Assembly: GCA_020054095.1 (NCBI GenBank)
Contig: JAGVMA010000062.1
Coordinates: 1-59,706, forward strand
Direction: 5' to 3'
Origin: Bacteroidia bacterium
GTDB lineage: Bacteria; Bacteroidota; Bacteroidia; JADZBD01
DNA length: 59,706 bases
Part shown: positions 15,775 through 24,411 of the stretch, piece by piece
Numbering within the stretch: position 1 is the first letter of the stretch
Layout of the letters: each line of letters begins with the position of its first letter
Program-made: the position numbers and the translations under genes
Notes under the pieces: model-generated
Database searches by the model: none
What the model was told of the DNA's origin: nothing
Seen by the model: the letters and a program-made list of their open reading frames with translations, nothing else

Positions 15775-16968
15775 ATGAACACTATTGACAAATATAATTT
15801 CGGAAATAAGCGAGCGCTGATACGTGTGGATTTTAATGTGCCACTCGATGATAAATTTAATGTTGCAGATGATACGCGAATGCGCGCTGCATTGCCAACC
15901 ATAAAAAAAATTATTGCTGATGGCGGTGCAGTTGTATTAATGTCGCACCTTGGCCGACCGAAAGATGGCCCTACCGAAAAATATTCATTGAAACATATTG
16001 TAAAACATTTATCAGCGCTTGTGAAAGCACCAGTGAAATTTACAAGTGATTGCATGGGTGCTGATGCATTTAACGCATCGGCAAGTTTAAAAGCAGGCGA
16101 AATTTTGTTGCTCGAAAATTTAAGATTTTATAAAGAAGAAGAAAAGGGTGATGTAGCATTTGCCGAAAAATTAGCTGCACACGGCAATTTTTATGTAAAC
16201 GATGCATTTGGTACAGCGCACCGCGCACATGCATCCACTGCGGTAGTCGCAAAATATTTTAATTCAAAAAAATGTTTTGGATATGTGATGAGCGGAGAGC
16301 TTGCATCTATTAATAAAGTACTTACACAAGCCGAAAAACCATTTACCGCAATAATGGGTGGCGCTAAAGTATCTGACAAAATTTTAATTTTAGAGCAGCT
16401 CCTAAACAAAGCCAACAATATTATTATAGGTGGCGGCATGGCTTTTACATTTATAAAAGCGCAAGGTGGAAGAATTGGAAAATCGTTGGTAGAAAACGAC
16501 AAATTAGATGTGGCGCTTAAAATAATTGCTGATGCTAAAGCCAAAGGAGTGAATTTGTACATTCCCACCGATGCGATAGCTGCTGATAATTTTGCGAACG
16601 ATGCAAATAAAAAATATTGCGACATAAATACCATTGATGATGGATATATGGGTTTAGATATTGGCGAAAAAACAGAAACGATATATGCAGATGTTATTTC
16701 CAAATCAAAAACGATTTTATGGAACGGCCCTATGGGTGTTTTTGAAATGAGTAATTTTGAACATGGTACTAAAGCTGTTGCTGATGCAATTGTGGCTGCT
16801 ACAAAAAACGGAGCATACTCGTTAATAGGTGGTGGCGATTCGGTGGCGGCAATAAATAAATACCAATTTGCAGATAAAGTTAGTTACGTATCAACCGGAG
16901 GTGGTGCACTATTAGAATATATTGAAAGCGGCACCTTGCCAGGTGTGGAAGCAGTAGAAAAAAATTAA
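15775..16968 (+). CDS. pgk: Phosphoglycerate kinase
   Basis: 397 residues, the usual length. It catalyses transfer of phosphate between 1,3-bisphosphoglycerate and ADP in glycolysis. Visible motifs are RVDFNVPLD (substrate site, N-domain), [63 protein letters not shown] and the nucleotide-binding IGGGDSVAA near the C-terminus. The last 4 nt overlap the end of the convergent homoserine dehydrogenase gene. Confidence 0.97.
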
Positions 16969-18179
16969 ACTGCACAAACAAAAACTTTGCTTTCTGCATT
17001 TCCCTTAAGTGCAAATAGCGATTTGAATTTTACGTTTGCAACAATATAATTTGTTCGTGTAGATTTATATTCTTCCTCAACAGATATAATTTCGATATCT
17101 TTTATCTCGGCTTTATCTTTAAAACGGATGTACACTTTAATTTCAAAATCGTTATCGAGTAATTCACCATTAGGTAATTTACCGGCTATGCTCGCTTGCT
17201 TTTTCAATTTTTTGTAGCCGTATTTGTAATCATAAGTAAGTGCCGAAATGTCTGACAATACAGCGCTGCCTGTAGGATGGCTGCCCGCACCTTTGCCTAC
17301 GAAAGTTTGCTTGCAAGAAAAAGCACCTTCCACTTCCACTCCATTGTATTCGTACATTACATTATACAATTCATCTTTTGCAATTACAAAGTGCGGCATG
17401 GCATATACCCTGAATTTGCCATTGCCGTTTTCGCCCACTTTATATCCGGTACCTATCATTTTTATTCGCAGTCCTTTTTCGCGAGCGTAAACTATGTCAT
17501 CAAAAGTTATGTTTTGTATTCCCAAGTTTAAAATTTGTTCGGGTTTTAATATCATCCCGAAAGAATGAACGGTGAGCAAACAAGTTTTGTAAAGCGTATC
17601 AAAGCCGGCAACATCGAGCCAAGGATTGCTTTCGGCAAAGCCGCTTGATTGCGCATCGTTTAAAATTGCATCGTAATTTTTGCTTTCTAATTCCATTCGG
17701 GTGAGGATATAATTGCAAGTGCCGTTTAAAATTCCCCTGAACGAACTCAGTAATTCATTATCATAATATTCTTCCAAATTGCGAATGATGGGAATGCTGC
17801 CGCCTGCACTGCCTTCGTAAATAAGTGCAATATTATTTTTTTCTTGCAACTTATAAAGCGATTCGAAATTTTCGGCAAGCATTTTTTTATTTGCTGTTAC
17901 CACATTAACTCCGTTGCTCATTGCTTCACTCACAATTTTATATGCTTCGTCTGAATCATCAATTAATTCTACAATCACATCTAAATTGTTTTTACCAAGC
18001 ACCTCTGTTTTATCGTACGTAAAATACGACATGTCAATTTTGCGCGGTTTGTTTGCATTCTTTACACATATTTTTTCAATGTTAGCCTGCAGACCCTGCG
18101 AATGATTTAAAACATCGTACAATCCTTGGCCTACACAACCAAAGCCAAATAATCCTATTGTCATTTTTTTATTTTCCAT
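16965..18179 (-). CDS. hom: Homoserine dehydrogenase
   Basis: 404 residues. It reduces aspartate semialdehyde to homoserine, a precursor of methionine and threonine. The N-terminal NAD(P) fold has [12 protein letters not shown]. The catalytic domain has [60 protein letters not shown] and a [10 protein letters not shown] segment. It is monofunctional, not fused to aspartokinase. It lies 10 nt after cysH at the end of the sulfur-assimilation operon. That fits supply of the carbon acceptor for sulfide in methionine synthesis, which I infer from position. Confidence 0.93.
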
Positions 18180-18189
18180 AATTTAATTG

Positions 18190-18837
18190 CTATGAATGTA
18201 ATCCGCATTCTGTTTTTGATTTATTTATCCATCTGCCCTCACGCGATTGCCCCTTGCCGGTACAATGTGTGCAACCGATACTGTTATACCCTTGTGCTTT
18301 AAGCGGATGTTCAGGCAAATTATTTTCCTTTATGTAACTATTTACTTCTTGTTCATTAATATCAATAATGGGATAAAATTTTATTATTCCGTTTCGCTCT
18401 TCAAAAATATTTAATTGAGCGCGGTGTTCGTTTTGCGATTTCATAAGACCCGATACCCACACCTGATAATTAGGTTTTATTTGTTCTAACGGCTCCACTT
18501 TATTTATACTGCAACATAAATCGGCATCTTTTGCCCAAGTTTTATCTTGCGCTGTAAATTTGTTCCTCCATTCATCTCCTTTTAGCTCAGTAATGTTTAA
18601 GTTAAATTTTTGGCGAAGATAATTTTTGTATTCAAGCGTTTCCGGAAAATGGTAAGTAGTGTCTAAAAAAACTATCTCTTGCTTGGGATTTGCTTTTTGG
18701 AATTGGTGAATAAGATAAACAGCAGTAGTGCCAAAAGAAGAAGTGAGAAGCACTTGCGAAAAATCTGCATACAGCTCATTTATTCGCTGCTGTGGACTAA
18801 GCGATAAATATTTTTTATTTAATTCTGTTAAGTTCAT
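18190..18837 (-). CDS. cysH: Adenylylsulfate/phosphoadenylylsulfate reductase
   Basis: 215 residues. It reduces activated sulfate (APS or PAPS) to sulfite. Visible parts are the PP-loop-like start (SFGTTAVYLIHQF), VFLDTTYHFPETLEY, a CC pair in DLCCSINKVEPLE, VWVSGLMKSQNEHRAQL, a second pair in CTHCTGKGQSREGRW and the C-terminal ECGLHS catalytic Cys. The CC plus CxxC set is the iron-sulfur ligand pattern usually linked to APS-type reductases. It lies 2 nt after the siroheme/TauE fusion gene. Confidence 0.93.
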   Translation of the reverse strand: MNLTELNKKYLSLSPQQRINELYADFSQVLLTSSFGTTAVYLIHQFQKANPKQEIVFLDTTYHFPETLEYKNYLRQKFNLNITELKGDEWRNKFTAQDKTWAKDADLCCSINKVEPLEQIKPNYQVWVSGLMKSQNEHRAQLNIFEERNGIIKFYPIIDINEQEVNSYIKENNLPEHPLKAQGYNSIGCTHCTGKGQSREGRWINKSKTECGLHS

Positions 18838-18839
18838 AA

Positions 18840-20354
18840 TTATAAAATTGCAATTAAAATGGAACGCAAACTTACAACGATTACAACAATGCCTACTACA
18901 ATAAGCCCTGCCTTTACAGGAATTTTTGATGTTGCAAATGCTGCAATAGGGGCAGCTATCATTCCGCCTATTACTAAGCCCAAAATAACTGTCCAGTGAT
19001 GGATGCCTATTACAGTAAAGAATGTGATGGAACTTGCGAGCGTGATAAAAAATTCTGCCAAATTAACCGATCCAATTGTGTAACGTACCGTGCGTCCTCG
19101 AGCAATAAGTGTTGATGAAACTATTGGTCCCCATCCGCCTCCGCCAATAGAATCAAGAAAGGCGCCAAAAAAAGCAAGCACCCCAATTCGTTTAACTTTT
19201 TTCTTTTCACTCAACTTTCTTATTGCTTTTACAATAATCACAATTCCTAAAAAAAGCGTGTACACCGAAACAATTGGTTTTATTAAACTTCCATAAGCTT
19301 GGAAAGAAGATAAAATATAAGCACCTGCAATTGATCCAATAATTCCCGGAATTAAAAGATGACGAAATAGTTTAGCATTCACGTTTTTAAATTTTAAATG
19401 CATTAATCCGGATGCTCCTGTTGTAAAAATTTCAGAAGCATGCACGCTTGCACTTGCTGCTGCGGGTGTTATACCGAATGAAAGTAAAAATGTGGTGGCA
19501 GTTACTCCATAAGCCATACCCAATGCGCCATCTACCATTTGAGCAATAAATCCGCCAAGCACAAATATTAAGACCGTCTTGTCAAGCGAATTAAAAAAAA
19601 GTGCTGCGTGTGAGCCGAAAGAATTTAGCGGCAAAAACGAAAACAAAATGTGCCCAACTACCATAAGAGCGATTGACGCCAATGAATATACGAGCCAATA
19701 TTTTACTTGCTTGTACTTTGGCTTTTCTTTTTCTTCAATCACCAAATGTGGCTGCAGCGATGCCATATTGGTACTCAACACAGAAGTTATTTCGTTCAAC
19801 TTTTTTACTTTATAAGCAAAATCTCCTTTTAGATGATTCCGTAATTTATTTAAACCATCAATATTAGTTTGAATATCAGTAGGTAAATTTTCGTTCAGCA
19901 CTTCTTTTACTCGTTTAGCAAGCGTAGGCGATTTGCCATTTGTTGAAATGGCAATTTTCAAATCTCCTTTTTGAACAATTGAACCGAGGTAGAAATCGCA
20001 TAAGTCGGGAGTGTCAGCCACGTTTATTAATATTTTTTTTTCAGTTGCATCTTTTTTAATCTGCACACTAAAACCTCTATTACCTGTTGCGGCTATAACT
20101 ATATCAGTGTTTTCTAAATCGGATTTTTGATACGCTCGTTCTTCTATCGAGATGTTTGAATATTTTTCAGCAATAGCTTTTATTTCGGGAAGAATTTTAA
20201 TCGCCACAAGCCTCACATTTGTTTGCGGACTGTTTTGTATCACTGCGGTAATTTTTTCCAAGCCAATATTGCCGCCTCCAATAATTAAAACGCGCAACTG
20301 TTCTAACTTTAGAAAAACAGGGAATAGTGTGTTTGTATGTTCCTCGATGGCCAT
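18840..20354 (-). CDS. Fusion of siroheme synthase (Met8-type) and TauE/SafE transporter domains
   Basis: 504 residues. Residues 1-155 are a precorrin-2 dehydrogenase/sirohydrochlorin ferrochelatase domain: LRVLIIGGGNIGLEKI, TDIVIAATGNRG, INVADTPDLCDFYLGSIVQK and ISTNGKSPTLAKRVKEVL. A linker follows, then from about 218 a TauE/SafE permease with 7-8 spans, including VLGGFIAQMVDGALGMAYGV, SASVHASEIFTTGASGLMHL and GAFLDSIGGGGWGPIVSSTL. Siroheme is the cofactor of sulfite reductase in the same operon, and TauE-family members move sulfite or related sulfur anions. One polypeptide therefore seems to join cofactor synthesis to transport. Transport direction and substrate are inferred. Confidence 0.88.
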   Translation of the reverse strand: MAIEEHTNTLFPVFLKLEQLRVLIIGGGNIGLEKITAVIQNSPQTNVRLVAIKILPEIKAIAEKYSNISIEERAYQKSDLENTDIVIAATGNRGFSVQIKKDATEKKILINVADTPDLCDFYLGSIVQKGDLKIAISTNGKSPTLAKRVKEVLNENLPTDIQTNIDGLNKLRNHLKGDFAYKVKKLNEITSVLSTNMASLQPHLVIEEKEKPKYKQVKYWLVYSLASIALMVVGHILFSFLPLNSFGSHAALFFNSLDKTVLIFVLGGFIAQMVDGALGMAYGVTATTFLLSFGITPAAASASVHASEIFTTGASGLMHLKFKNVNAKLFRHLLIPGIIGSIAGAYILSSFQAYGSLIKPIVSVYTLFLGIVIIVKAIRKLSEKKKVKRIGVLAFFGAFLDSIGGGGWGPIVSSTLIARGRTVRYTIGSVNLAEFFITLASSITFFTVIGIHHWTVILGLVIGGMIAAPIAAFATSKIPVKAGLIVVGIVVIVVSLRSILIAIL

Positions 20355-20358
20355 TGGG

Positions 20359-21054
20359 CTAATTTAGTTGCTGTATTAAATTTAAAACAATAGTATTGTT
20401 GTCATAAAACGAGTTAGGGCTGTTTTGCTTCAGAACAAGATTCATGTATAGCAACTGAATATTTAATGATTTATTAAACATATAACCGAACCCGGTCGAA
20501 ATCCTGTTTTGATCAAAATAATTGCATACTACCGATTTTCCGCTGTTGAACATTATTTCGTCTGCCAAAGTGAAATAAAAAGTATTATCCTCTATTGATT
20601 TTTTATGTATTGGCACTTGCAAATTTAACTGATATCTGTATCTATTAGTGTATGTAAATTCATCTGCAGGGGATGAAATGTAGCGCTGCTCTATCCTTAA
20701 CCTTTGATTAATGATTAGAGTTCCTGCTTTAGCTTGATATGAAATTTGTTGCCAAAGTCTGTATTCTGGTTTAAACTTGTCTGTTCGGTAATGCATAAAA
20801 AAAACGCCTCCAAAAGCCAAAAAAAATTTGTCATTTAGTTGGTACCCAATTCCTGGTCTAACTAAAATCTGACTCCAATCGCGTAACCAATCAGCACGTC
20901 TTAAGCCGTAATCAAGGTGAAAAAATAATTTTTTGTTCAATTTATATCTCGCAAAGTGTCCAAACCAAGTAAGATTATTATTGCTTACTTGTTTTGGCAC
21001 TTCAGCGTTTAGGGTTAAATAAATAAATAAAAAGAATAGAATTAAATTTTTCAT
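20359..21054 (-). CDS. DUF2490-family outer-membrane-type protein
   Basis: 231 residues with a signal peptide (MKNLILFFLFIYLTLNAEVP). The rest is alternating beta strands rich in Tyr, Phe and Arg, for example LFFHLDYGLRRADWLRDWSQ, QILVRPGIGYQL, RLWQQISYQA and FGYMFNKSLNIQLLYMNLVL, ending in Asn. It resembles the DUF2490 family of predicted beta-barrels. It sits within the sulfur operon, 3 nt after the methyltransferase stop and 4 nt before the next start. A link to envelope passage of sulfur compounds is possible but unproven. Confidence 0.75.
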   Translation of the reverse strand: MKNLILFFLFIYLTLNAEVPKQVSNNNLTWFGHFARYKLNKKLFFHLDYGLRRADWLRDWSQILVRPGIGYQLNDKFFLAFGGVFFMHYRTDKFKPEYRLWQQISYQAKAGTLIINQRLRIEQRYISSPADEFTYTNRYRYQLNLQVPIHKKSIEDNTFYFTLADEIMFNSGKSVVCNYFDQNRISTGFGYMFNKSLNIQLLYMNLVLKQNSPNSFYDNNTIVLNLIQQLN

Positions 21055-21057
21055 ACT

Positions 21058-21831
21058 TCAATTTAAAAGATATTTCCAATCTGATAATACTTGCGGAAAT
21101 AATTTGTGCTGGCGCACTACTTCGCCAATAACAATTATTGCCGGTGCGCCTATTTTTTCATCGCTCACAATTTGCTCAATGGTTTCAATAGTGCCAAGCG
21201 CAATATTTTCGGTTGGCAGCGAACCATTTTGAATTACCGCAACAGCCGTTTCCGCTTTTCCTTTTTGCTTAAACGTGCTAACAATTTCGGCTATTTTATT
21301 TAAGCCCATTAAAATTACAACCGTAGCGGTTGATTGAGCAGCGAGTTTTACATCTGCAGATAATTGATTGTCTTTGGTGGTTCCGGTAATTACCCAAAAG
21401 CTTTCGCTGATGCCGCGCTGTGTAACAGGTATGCCTTGCAATCCGGCAACGGCTATTGAACTTGATATGCCGGGTACGTAAGCAGTTTCAATATTAAACA
21501 ATTCGGCAAAAGCGATTTCTTCGGCACCACGACCAAATACAAATGGGTCGCCACCTTTTAGGCGAACCACATGACCATGCGTAAATGCCAAATCTACAAT
21601 TAGCGCATTTATTTGCTCTTGCGGATAACTGTGTTTGCTATTTCTTTTTCCTACATATATTTTTTTTACTCCGTGCGGAATGTATTTAAATAACTCAGTG
21701 TTAACGAGCGCATCGTATAAAACAATATCCGCATCGGCAAGTGCATTAATAGCTTTTACCGTAATTAAATCTACATCGCCCGGACCGGCTCCCACTACTG
21801 TTAATTGGGGAATATTATTTGTTGTTTTCAT
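21058..21831 (-). CDS. cobA: Uroporphyrinogen-III C-methyltransferase
   Basis: 257 residues. It adds two methyl groups from S-adenosylmethionine to uroporphyrinogen III to give precorrin-2, the precursor of siroheme and B12. Motifs are LTVVGAGPGDVDLITVKAI, DIVLYDALVN, VRLKGGDPFVFGRGAEEIA, YVPGISSSIAVAG, GIPVTQRG, VILMGLNKI and NGSLPTENIALGTI. It works upstream of the Met8 domain in the next-but-one gene. It follows a Cys-run mini-ORF by 53 nt. The symbol is shared by sumT/cysG-type enzymes. Confidence 0.95.
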   Translation of the reverse strand: MKTTNNIPQLTVVGAGPGDVDLITVKAINALADADIVLYDALVNTELFKYIPHGVKKIYVGKRNSKHSYPQEQINALIVDLAFTHGHVVRLKGGDPFVFGRGAEEIAFAELFNIETAYVPGISSSIAVAGLQGIPVTQRGISESFWVITGTTKDNQLSADVKLAAQSTATVVILMGLNKIAEIVSTFKQKGKAETAVAVIQNGSLPTENIALGTIETIEQIVSDEKIGAPAIIVIGEVVRQHKLFPQVLSDWKYLLN

Positions 21832-21884: not shown

Positions 21885-21938
21885 TCAGCAACAACAACAA
21901 TATTCAAATACAATGTGGATATAATATTTTCTATTCAT
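21885..21938 (-). CDS. 17-residue mini-ORF ending in four Cys codons (third Cys-rich leader)
   Basis: Reads MNRKYYIHIVFEYCCCC then TGA, with codons TGT TGT TGT TGC directly before the stop. Its ATG overlaps the sulfite reductase stop in another frame (CATGAATAG), so ribosomes finishing sulfite reductase could restart here. The cobA ATG follows 53 nt later. Runs of one amino acid just before a stop are typical of regulatory leader peptides that sense that amino acid, here cysteine, the end product of the operon. No terminator hairpin is visible downstream, so any control would be translational or Rho-dependent. Translation itself is unproven. Confidence 0.65.
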   Translation of the reverse strand: MNRKYYIHIVFEYCCCC

Positions 21939-24051
21939 GGTTAACGGTATTTTCTTGTTTTATAGTATTGCGATAATTTAATGCGCTTTGATAAAACGAT
22001 TTTACGTTTTCAAAAAAGTTTTCTGCAAATTTTTCTGCTGGCTCGTTTTTATTTATCTGCAACACTGTTTCGGAGAATGTATTTTGGAAACTGAATAGTT
22101 GCGTATCAACAAAATATTTCTGAAAATCATTAATGATGCCGTGTTGTGTATTGCAATGCACTTGTTTTTCTATAAGCAGCGCCTTTGCAATGCTTATGTA
22201 TGTTGCGTAGCTGTGATAAATACTGTCGCCATAAGACTGATTGGCTAATGTTTCGGCTGCTGACTGTAATTTTTCTTCTGCCTCAAATAGGAGTGTAGCC
22301 ACTAAGTCAATCATCACCCCGGCACATTCGCCCACACCAATTGCCGTTTCAAAATTTTCTGTTTTATTCCAGTCAATCAATTCATCAGGAGAAATTGTGC
22401 TTGTATCTGCAACTGGCGTAAGCAATTTGTAAAAATAATTTTTTCCTTGCCTGTCGTAATAGCTATTAAAGTATTCGCCTTCTACTGCATTGTTTTCAAA
22501 ATCAAGGAGTAGTTTTCGCAATACATCAGGGCCTCTTTTTGATGGCACTTTAATTACCTTATCGGAAATGCGACCGCCTCCGTTTCCTAAAACACCACCT
22601 CCGAGCAACACCTGCAAAGCCGGCACAACCACTGCACCAACTTTAAACGAACTGCCGTGAAATCCAATCTGCGCCAAGCTGTGCTGGCCGCATGAATTCA
22701 TGCAACCACTAATTTTAATTTTTATATCGTGGTTATATATCAAATCAGAAAATTCTGCCTTAATAACTTTTTCGAGCGCACCGGCAATTCCTGTACTGCT
22801 CGATATTCCTAAATTGCAAGTATCAGTTCCGGGGCAAGCAGTAATATCAGCCACACTATCAAACCCGGGATTAGCTAATCCTATTTCGTTCAGCTCAGTA
22901 TAAAGCGATGGCAGTGCTTCGGGACGCACATACTTTAACAAAAATCCTTGGTTAATTGTAATCCTAATATCCTGCGAAGCATATTTTTCAACTATTGTTG
23001 CAAGTTTGCGGGCGTTATCTGTATTTAAATTTCCTAAAAACACACGCAAGTAAACACCAAAATATCCTTTTTGCTTTTGTTCAAATACATTTGTTTTGTA
23101 CCATGCTTTGTACGCATCTGTGTCCGAAATTTTAAATGTGGTAAATATGTTTACTGTTTCGGGTAAGTGAGTTGGAATAAAATCGGGATTAATTTCAACT
23201 ATTTTATTTAGCAAGGCGTTTTCTTCTGCAGCAGTTAGTTTTAAAAATTCGTCAATGCCAATTTTATTGATAAGGTATTTTATTCTGGCTTTGTGCCTGC
23301 TTGCGCGCTCACCATGTCTATCGAAAACACGCAGCGCTGCCTCGGTAAACGGAATTATTTTATTTACATCTAAAAACTCGTGTGCGGTTTTTGCCAAAAA
23401 GGGTTGTGCGCCCAATCCGCCACCAACAAGTATTTTAAAGCCGCGCACTATTTTCCCATCAATAATTTTTACTTTGGGGATAAACCCAATATCGTGCATA
23501 AATGTGTATGCTGTATCATCATCATTTGAAGAGAATGCAATTTTGATTTTACGCCCCAGTTCTTGGCAAAAAGGTTTTCGCAAAAAATATTTGAACACTG
23601 CTTGTGCATAAGGCGAAACATCGAAAGGTTCTTTTGCATCTATTCCGGCTTCGGCTGAAGCTGTAACATTGCGCACTGTGTTGCCGCACGCCTCGCGCAA
23701 AGTAATATCATCTTGCTCCAATTTTGCCCAGAGTTCAGGTGTTCTGTCTAAGCTCACGTAGTGTATTTGAATGTCTTGCCTGGTCGTGAGATGCAAATTG
23801 CCCGTTGAGTATTCATCGCTTATCTCGGCAATTTTTCGCAACTGCTTGGGGCTTACTTTGCCAAATGGTAATTTAATACGAATCATTTGCACTCCTTGCT
23901 GCCGCTGACCATAAACGCCTCTCGCTAATCTGAGTGAGCGAAATTTTTCTTCGTCAATTTTTCCATCACGAAAAAGTTTAATTTTTCTTTCCAGCTCAAT
24001 GATGTCTTTTTCTACGAGCGGATTCTCAATTTCTGTTTGAAAGCTTTGCAT
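21931..24051 (-). CDS. Assimilatory sulfite reductase, ferredoxin-type, with C-terminal helical extension
   Basis: 706 residues. It reduces sulfite to sulfide with siroheme and a [4Fe-4S] cluster. Residues 1-540 contain two ferredoxin-like/catalytic repeats: LRLARGVYGQRQQGVQMIRI, GNLHLTTRQDIQIHYV and TVRNVTASAEAGID. The cluster ligands are CPGTDTC (about 405-411) and CMNSC (about 450-454), then KVGAVVVPALQVLLGGGVLG. Residues about 555-706 are an added helical region (FEAEEKLQSAAETLANQSYG, SIAKALLIEKQ) resembling a HEPN domain. This tail makes the protein 130-150 residues longer than standard ferredoxin-type enzymes. It is the first large gene of the operon, behind two attenuator-like elements. 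Confidence 0.93.
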   Translation of the reverse strand: MQSFQTEIENPLVEKDIIELERKIKLFRDGKIDEEKFRSLRLARGVYGQRQQGVQMIRIKLPFGKVSPKQLRKIAEISDEYSTGNLHLTTRQDIQIHYVSLDRTPELWAKLEQDDITLREACGNTVRNVTASAEAGIDAKEPFDVSPYAQAVFKYFLRKPFCQELGRKIKIAFSSNDDDTAYTFMHDIGFIPKVKIIDGKIVRGFKILVGGGLGAQPFLAKTAHEFLDVNKIIPFTEAALRVFDRHGERASRHKARIKYLINKIGIDEFLKLTAAEENALLNKIVEINPDFIPTHLPETVNIFTTFKISDTDAYKAWYKTNVFEQKQKGYFGVYLRVFLGNLNTDNARKLATIVEKYASQDIRITINQGFLLKYVRPEALPSLYTELNEIGLANPGFDSVADITACPGTDTCNLGISSSTGIAGALEKVIKAEFSDLIYNHDIKIKISGCMNSCGQHSLAQIGFHGSSFKVGAVVVPALQVLLGGGVLGNGGGRISDKVIKVPSKRGPDVLRKLLLDFENNAVEGEYFNSYYDRQGKNYFYKLLTPVADTSTISPDELIDWNKTENFETAIGVGECAGVMIDLVATLLFEAEEKLQSAAETLANQSYGDSIYHSYATYISIAKALLIEKQVHCNTQHGIINDFQKYFVDTQLFSFQNTFSETVLQINKNEPAEKFAENFFENVKSFYQSALNYRNTIKQENTVNHE

Positions 24052-24086: not shown

Positions 24087-24120
24087 TAAAAAAGCCCCTC
24101 GGCTTTTGCGGAGGGGCTTT
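24087..24120 (-). terminator. Intrinsic terminator behind the second Cys leader, before sulfite reductase
   Basis: On the minus strand a perfect 10-bp stem (AAAGCCCCTC with GAGGGGCTTT) and a 10-nt loop are followed by TTT, giving six T in a row. It lies 23 nt after the stop of the 27-residue mini-ORF and 36 nt before the sulfite reductase ATG. It can therefore only end transcripts that started in the leader. Confidence 0.85.
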
Positions 24121-24142: not shown

Positions 24143-24226
24143 TCAATAACAGCACTTCCGCCTGTGATTTTTACACATGCAGCAATACATTTGAATCATT
24201 GTTGTTTTGGTTGTTATTGTTTTCAT
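24143..24226 (-). CDS. 27-residue Cys-rich leader peptide, second of tandem pair
   Basis: ATG at 24226, stop TGA at 24143. The C-terminal part reads MIQMYCCMCKNHRRKCCY with five Cys codons in two clusters. The N-terminal part (KTITTKTTM) resembles the first leader (NTIITTSTM), suggesting the two arose by duplication. It starts 8 nt after the T-run of the first terminator and is followed by the second terminator, so it repeats the first leader-terminator unit. The Cys codons sit just upstream of the terminator, as in amino-acid attenuators. It could instead be a metal-binding peptide. Translation is unproven. Confidence 0.65.
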   Translation of the reverse strand: MKTITTKTTMIQMYCCMCKNHRRKCCY

Positions 24227-24233
24227 TTGTTTA

Positions 24234-24270
24234 AAAATAAAAAGGGCTTTCGTTTTACGGAAAGCCCTTT
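24234..24270 (-). terminator. Intrinsic terminator behind the first Cys leader, with possible antiterminator
   Basis: On the minus strand an 11-bp stem (AAAGGGCTTTC with GAAAGCCCTTT) is followed by TTATTTTT. It lies 30 nt after the first mini-ORF. GGAGAGCT (complement of 24288-24295), between mini-ORF and terminator, can pair over 8 bp (two G-U) with GGCTTTCC in the left arm (complement of 24259-24266). That would break the terminator. Confidence 0.85.
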
Positions 24271-24300
24271 GGGTAAATTATGATATTAGCTCTCCTACAA

Positions 24301-24366
24301 TTAAATGTACATACAGCACATACACATTGTGCTGGTTGTAATAATTGTATTTGAGTAGTTGTTCAT
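24301..24366 (-). CDS. 21-residue Cys-rich leader peptide, first of tandem pair
   Basis: ATG at 24366, stop TAA at 24301. The end of the peptide is TSTMCMCCMYI, with three Cys codons in a four-codon window near the stop. The ATG is 12 nt after a consensus -7 box, so the transcript would be nearly leaderless. A perfect 7-bp hairpin (CAGCACA with TGTGCTG, 24314-24334) overlaps the Cys codons, and a terminator follows after 30 nt. Together with the alternative pairing partner at 24288-24295 this is the layout of a classical attenuator sensing cysteine. Similar polycysteine leaders upstream of sulfur genes are known from mycobacteria. Translation here is unproven. Confidence 0.7.
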   Translation of the reverse strand: MNNYSNTIITTSTMCMCCMYI

Positions 24367-24378
24367 TGTTTGTGAGGG

Positions 24379-24411
24379 CAAATGTAAATTAAAAAACTTT
24401 ACATCTGCAAA
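24379..24411 (-). promoter_or_regulatory. Consensus promoter of the sulfur-assimilation operon
   Basis: On the minus strand TTTG (complement of 24408-24411), 21 nt, then TACATTTG (complement of 24379-24386), a full match to the Bacteroidota form. Expected transcription start is about 24375, some 8-9 nt before the first leader ATG. The promoter begins 14 nt after the stop region of the upstream gene. Confidence 0.8.

Follow-up and report, generated by a model that had tools for sequence, protein, structure and literature searches.

The sulfur-assimilation operon of the Bacteroidia bacterium GCA_020054095.1 is very probably controlled by two ribosome-mediated transcription attenuators in series, a reading that we draw from the DNA sequence. 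The twin design of leader and terminator recurs in relatives, and thus a Cys-starved ribosome, perhaps also a Met-starved one, very probably turns the operon on. The window, which is the whole stretch of DNA analysed, comprises 59,706 nt of contig JAGVMA010000062.1. Both strands were read, and the feature lies on the minus strand. The operon contains the following genes:

21931..24051, minus strand, nitrite/sulfite reductase family protein of 706 aa, matching NIR_SIR and NIR_SIR_ferr
21058..21831, minus strand, cobA, uroporphyrinogen-III C-methyltransferase (siroheme synthesis), TIGR01469 over cut-off
20359..21054, minus strand, DUF2490 protein, between cobA and the Met8-TauE fusion
18840..20354, minus strand, siroheme synthase N-terminal domain (Met8-like) fused to TauE/SafE permease
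18190..18837, minus strand, cysH, phosphoadenylyl-sulfate reductase, TIGR00434 over cut-off
16965..18179, minus strand, hom, homoserine dehydrogenase

The 706-residue protein is sulfite reductase, judging from its operon context. Its residues 586–651 give a weak C-terminal Pfam HEPN match, barely over the cut-off. The gene at 18840–20354 joins a TauE/SafE sulfite exporter to the siroheme-synthase N-terminal domain. The initial annotation of this DNA had listed the same operon, omitting only the DUF2490 gene in the interval between cobA and the fusion gene.

Upstream of sulfite reductase, two complete units follow each other:

24379..24411, minus strand, Bacteroidota-type promoter: TTTG at 24411–24408, a 21-nt spacer, TACATTTG at 24386–24379
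24301..24366, minus strand, leader ORF1, MNNYSNTIITTSTMCMCCMYI and stop, Cys codons at 24324–24322, 24318–24316 and 24315–24313
24288..24295, minus strand, antiterminator segment 1, GGAGAGCT, candidate pairing with the left arm of terminator 1
24241..24270, minus strand, terminator 1, 11-bp stem, then U tract, −15.3 kcal/mol
24143..24226, minus strand, leader ORF2, MKTITTKTTMIQMYCCMCKNHRRKCCY and stop, core Cys codons at 24184–24182, 24181–24179 and 24175–24173
24150..24162, minus strand, antiterminator segment 2, GGCGGAAGTGCTG, within the 3′ part of ORF2
24091..24120, minus strand, terminator 2, AAAGCCCCTCCGCAAAAGCCGAGGGGCTTT, then U tract, −20.0 kcal/mol

The ATG of unit 1 at 24366 is 12 nt past TACATTTG, and transcription is predicted to start a few nucleotides ahead of it. 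Codons 14, 16 and 19 of ORF1 are Met codons, and a 7-bp hairpin spans its Cys codons. Promoter, ATG spacing, ORF1, hairpin and the 11-bp terminator with its T run are all found where the initial annotation had placed them. The alternative pairing that it proposed is a more qualified case. The segment at 24295–24288 exists, beginning about 20 nt after the last Cys codon starts and right behind the ORF1 stop, and its duplex with the left arm of terminator 1 has an energy of −8.4 kcal/mol, with p 0.20 when taken alone. The unit 1 antiterminator is thus not significant by itself, and its significance derives from the family, where the pairing is significant.

While unit 1 is real, its tandem partner between unit 1 and sulfite reductase had been missed. 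The start codon of ORF2 is 14 nt past the terminator 1 stem. Segment 2 begins 13 nt after the last core Cys codon starts, and its pairing with AAGCCCCTCCGC (−11.7 kcal/mol, p 0.015) is stronger than that of unit 1. Terminator 2 ends about 40 nt from the sulfite reductase start. Dinucleotide shuffling of the 373-nt intergenic region (10,000 shuffles) yielded a Cys-rich mini-ORF in 167 cases and in none a mini-ORF with a terminator, compared with two full units in the real sequence. The folding z-scores of the two halves of the region are −4.9 and −5.2.

Relatives were collected within the class Bacteroidia by one genome-contig scan and two whole-genome searches; dropping loci with identical sequence around the gene start left 138 sulfite reductase loci. 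The detector sought mini-ORFs in which Cys codons cluster and behind which an intrinsic terminator lies, and initially matched in 66 loci. Six matches (L107-0, L103-0, L149, L147, L091-0 and L090) were dropped by judgement as likely intra-CDS or implausible, and sequences with unknown residues were left out. The final set holds 80 units from 63 loci, or 63 non-redundant units at 70% nucleotide identity. At least one unit therefore occurs in 63/138 loci, which represent 15 of the 25 family groups; 17 loci carry two. Chryseolinea sp. H1M3-3 (L019) is among those with one unit. The Cys clusters, terminators and alternative pairing for which the initial annotation suggested a check in related genomes are found across this set.

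No units were detected in family groups f12, f15, f54, f68 and others of the 138-locus sample, nor at the sampled loci of Echinicola, Algoriphagus, Belliella, Flavicella, Wenyingzhuangia and Psychroserpens, by a detector that misses leaders more than 1,500 nt upstream or with fewer Cys codons, as at L102. There, some 130 nt ahead of sulfite reductase, MPMHYCYMMREQI and stop (one Cys, several Met) precedes a terminator; it is possibly a Met-weighted leader. Upstream Cys-codon runs in Wenyingzhuangia (L044, L045, L047) were rejected as leaders, stops interrupting their frames. The first 78 loci (1.0 Mb) were also scanned on both strands for clusters of any amino acid, without bias, and Cys proved the commonest clustered residue. 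Each of the 38 matches that pair a Cys mini-ORF with a terminator, a total in which some loci count twice, has the coding orientation and precedes either sulfite reductase or whichever gene opens its operon.

The spacing between Cys codons and terminator is constant. Over the 80 units, the last core Cys codon precedes the terminator by a median of 56 nt (IQR 51–65.5). The stop codon falls 1–24 codons past the last Cys, a median of 23 nt from the terminator. At the median, the antiterminator segment begins 16 nt beyond the last Cys codon, and in 69/80 it begins between 9 and 20 nt beyond it. Its pairing with the terminator left arm has a median z of −2.2 against shuffles, with p≤0.05 in 40/80 units (Fisher 1.5e-34). 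Duplex energies have a median of −10.8 kcal/mol, versus −5.1 and −4.3 in control regions. When arms were swapped between species, the mean energy changed from −10.8 to −7.9 kcal/mol (p≤5e-5). Cognate arms thus fit better than swapped ones, which amounts to covariation without the need for an alignment. Divergent pairs illustrate it, such as GGAAAGCC with GGCTTTCC (L085) versus GGAAGAGC with GCTCTTCC (L067).

This architecture bears on whether stalling might instead alter how accessible the main gene's start is, leaving termination aside. Mycobacterial leaderless Cys-codon ORFs are described as translational in that sense (cited in PMC13236596 and PMC9031893). Every counted unit here, however, has a strong intrinsic terminator at constant spacing, the alternative pairing targets the terminator arm, and tandem units carry two terminators. 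Translational attenuation is accordingly very unlikely for these loci.

Transcription attenuation, the preferred reading, also agrees with modelled ribosome positions. The left arm is sequestered at 0.71 with the footprint at the last Cys versus 0.29 at the stop (p 3e-12), a contrast partly due to there being less free RNA when the ribosome is at the stop. The two window units give 0.64/0.28 and 0.82/0.22 for stalled and stop positions. Pairing of the coding and Cys region with the antiterminator segment is weakly above chance (median z −0.39, p≤0.05 in 10/63), too weak family-wide to establish a trp-style protector. No conserved protector (anti-antiterminator) pairing was found among the 63 units, and thus the ribosome-free state is predicted to read through (0.65) and not to terminate.

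Of the 63 first leader ATGs, 34 have the box TAnnTTTG no more than 70 nt away, mostly at 4–19 nt, as compared with 3.6% of random ATGs. Several of the remaining first leaders have the one-base-shorter variant TAnTTTG. No second-leader ATG (0/17) has TAnnTTTG nearby, and second leaders often begin directly behind terminator 1. The distribution of the box suggests that unit 1 is promoter-proximal and near-leaderless and that unit 2 is internal, as far as starts can be predicted. The near-leaderless start proposed for the window hence recurs among relatives.

Taken as a mechanism, RNA polymerase would start a few nucleotides ahead of ORF1, and a ribosome would load at the near-leaderless ATG. With Cys-tRNA, and perhaps Met-tRNA, well charged, the ribosome would get to the stop codon, where its footprint would hide the antiterminator segment; the terminator would then form and transcription end. 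With low charging the ribosome would stall within the Cys/Met cluster and leave the segment about 13–20 nt past the last Cys free to pair with the left arm, allowing read-through. With ORF2 and terminator 2 the same decision would be taken again ahead of sulfite reductase, an arrangement expected to cut basal expression and sharpen the response.

The leader peptides are divergent in sequence, with the Cys cluster retained. Their Cys codons are TGT (139) and TGC (114). In 18 disjoint pairs of relatives, Cys was kept in 56 codons, 12 of them synonymously changed, and replaced in 21. Met was kept in 53 codons and replaced in 14 (53/67), and other residues were kept in 147/273. This synonymous variation weighs against the idea that a riboswitch or an RNA-binding protein governs the terminators, the ORFs being incidental. 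Some sulfite reductase loci do have nearby SAM-I riboswitches, yet no Rfam family exceeds the gathering cut-off in the window, and we give this explanation hardly any probability. The SAM-I riboswitches lie no more than a few kb from sulfite reductase at leader-less loci (L121, L122, L128, L033, L034, L136) and also at leader-bearing ones (L115, L004). Being present with and without leaders, they show no clean exchange by which a riboswitch would substitute for a Cys leader.

Other operons were probed by gene family, namely cysD, cysK, cysE, OAH sulfhydrylase, trpE and hisG. Poly-His leaders with a terminator precede hisG in 13/14 genomes (L237–L249), and poly-Trp leaders with a terminator precede trpE in 7/9 genomes with a full-length trpE match (L214–L222). 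Leader-peptide attenuation is thus general in these bacteria. These counterparts also bear on whether the ORFs serve to make a functional, metal- or thiol-binding small peptide rich in Cys. The leader peptides are Cys-rich and their position is conserved, but peptide length, Cys number and Cys spacing vary freely and the remaining residues are not conserved. Conservation is seen instead in the distance from Cys to terminator and in the RNA pairing. A functional peptide is therefore highly improbable, and attenuation by the translating ribosome remains the reading that we adopt.

Met makes up 12.6% of Cys-leader residues versus 2.5% in control mini-ORFs (p 2e-75), with peaks beside the Cys core at −1 (52%) and +1 (38%). 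Met flanks the core in 44/63 Cys leaders versus 1/20 His/Trp leaders of the same genomes (p 2e-7). It is quite possible, if somewhat short of an even chance, that the sensor reads cysteine alone, the Met codons being neutral or otherwise used, for example as extra starts near the Cys cluster. The leaders of L078 and L158 have Cys without adjoining Met, and G313 and G054 have cysE- and cysK-like genes, yet Met-flanked leaders. Against Cys-only sensing stand the size of the Met enrichment with its peaks at the edges of the core, the near absence of core-flanking Met from His/Trp leaders, and the conservation of Met in the relative pairs. The pairing test did not support Met as a by-product of pairing between coding region and antiterminator. 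Thr sensing, considered in view of the Thr-rich window ORFs and hom in the operon, was set aside: Thr makes up 8.5% of leader residues and 5.5% of those in controls, a difference that probably reflects an A/C-rich start region.

Cys leaders extend beyond the sulfite reductase gene. Where an aldo/keto reductase or peroxiredoxin, so named from reading the sequences and not from a profile search, is the first gene of the operon, the leader moves ahead of that gene. Peroxiredoxin-like or aldo/keto-reductase-like first genes are seen at L002, L083, L084, L087; L004, L009, L015, L082 and others. Operons with cysD have a Cys leader in 9/13 genomes, the window's genome included. Its third Cys/Met attenuator (L168, contig C54, leader at 752) lies before cysD. 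This leader is MKSRTLRQSVIYSICCMMCCN and stop, behind TACATTTG-CCAA-ATG, and GGAGAGAC can pair with GTCTTTCT. A Cys leader is also present at one cysE-cysK locus (G313). No Met-only leaders were found ahead of the sampled OAH-sulfhydrylase-family genes.

In 12/14 genomes, cysE-like genes are weak hexapeptide-repeat matches at most, cysKM has no match over the cut-off, and most of the 12 have a longer, cystathionine beta-synthase-sized relative. The lack of a recognisable cysE and of a cysKM match over the cut-off fits, without proving it, entry of sulfide via homocysteine as a route to cysteine, which would explain both the Cys and Met codons and the presence of hom in the operon. As a full explanation of the Met codons, this route meets counter-evidence in G313 and G054, whose cysE- and cysK-like genes indicate that a shared homocysteine route is not universal and whose leaders are Met-flanked all the same.

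ARAGORN identified five tRNA genes in 1.41 Mb of loci. Three are tRNA-Cys(GCA) genes, in L010, L083 and L084, which share the orientation of the operon and sit downstream of the Cys terminators but ahead of sulfite reductase. The tRNA-Cys(GCA) genes placed in this way inside attenuator-controlled operons are:

L010, 6696–6768, tRNA-Cys(GCA)
L083, tRNA-Cys(GCA)
L084, 3646–3717, minus strand, tRNA-Cys(GCA)
L088, 3836–3908, minus strand, tRNA-Cys(GCA)

G172 matches L010 in arrangement and leader peptides and is thus not an independent case. By similarity, G254 has a single tRNA-Cys, and G361 has a further copy elsewhere. The position of tRNA-Cys inside the operon in one family suggests that the sensing tRNA may itself be under attenuator control. 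We tentatively propose, at a little under even chances, that a multivalent Cys and Met attenuator, in tandem and at several operons, defines a reduced-sulfur regulon of Bacteroidota, with sulfide perhaps entering via homocysteine to feed both amino acids and, in one family, with feedback through tRNA-Cys.

In 2004, Vitreschak and colleagues reportedly surveyed such systems and predicted attenuation for other amino acids in Bacteroidetes/Chlorobi. The initial annotation knew of no such system in Bacteroidota. For cysteine this agrees with the literature searched, largely other than subscription papers, in which no report of a Cys attenuator in the phylum was found; priority is not proven. Leader-peptide attenuation as such had been noted for amino-acid operons of Flavobacterium psychrophilum, in a general statement in the main text of PMC9723704. 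That case shares the phylum and structured 5′ regions with short peptides, and the statement does not name cysteine or sulfur operons. Possible sORF leaders are reported for Bacteroides (PMC7366714).

Cys leaders were predicted in Actinobacteria (PMC1262725), and mycobacterial polycysteine leaderless sORFs were described (Canestrari 2020, cited in PMC13236596 and PMC9031893). The latter share with the present units the Cys-codon runs, the leaderless or near-leaderless mini-ORF and the position ahead of cysteine or sulfur genes. They are described as acting by translational attenuation without conserved terminator hairpins (PMC1262725, PMC13236596), whereas the units here have intrinsic terminators with antiterminators, are often tandem and carry Met beside Cys. 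Mycobacteria, where the initial annotation had placed prior Cys attenuators, are not the only precedent. For Rhodobacterales uORFC-8-2, upstream of cysS, ribosome-mediated attenuation is also predicted, with two adjacent Cys codons in the uORF, usually at 14–15, followed by an intrinsic terminator (PMC8632094). As presented there, it is a single unit at the cysteinyl-tRNA synthetase gene in Alphaproteobacteria without a reported Met cluster. In contrast, each window unit has three core Cys codons, and the leaders described here precede sulfite reductase and cysD.

Enterobacterial trp and his attenuators (PMC1183508) likewise have regulatory codons and a terminator competing with an antiterminator, with ribosome position deciding. 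The present units differ in having no conserved protector pairing, a near-leaderless start, Cys/Met codons and a Bacteroidota host. E. coli trp terminates without translation, whereas the ribosome-free state here is predicted to read through. The tandem attenuators of Salmonella mgtCBR (PMC3641672) also place two short ORFs in one leader. Those ORFs sense different signals (ATP, proline), while here the codons are identical and each unit has its own intrinsic terminator.

The units combine a cluster of end-product codons, a terminator before the first gene and, at the family level, a mutually exclusive antiterminator. By these sequence features they are ribosome-mediated transcription attenuators with predicted function, and the cysteine-attenuator interpretation of the initial annotation is upheld to that extent. 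The new features are the Cys and Met codons, the units in series, the near-leaderless unit 1, the sulfur regulon and, in some lineages, the operon-borne tRNA-Cys.

Control of sulfur assimilation in Bacteroidota appears little described in the papers searched, and the attenuators offer a directly testable, codon-level mechanism for at least two operons. Cys-codon leaders recur in Bacteroidota with intrinsic terminators, while those of mycobacteria are reportedly translational. Met codons, units in series and co-transcribed tRNA-Cys raise the testable question of how one attenuator may combine input from two amino acids while controlling its own sensor. If true, the operon-borne tRNA-Cys would feed back on the sensor in a closed loop.
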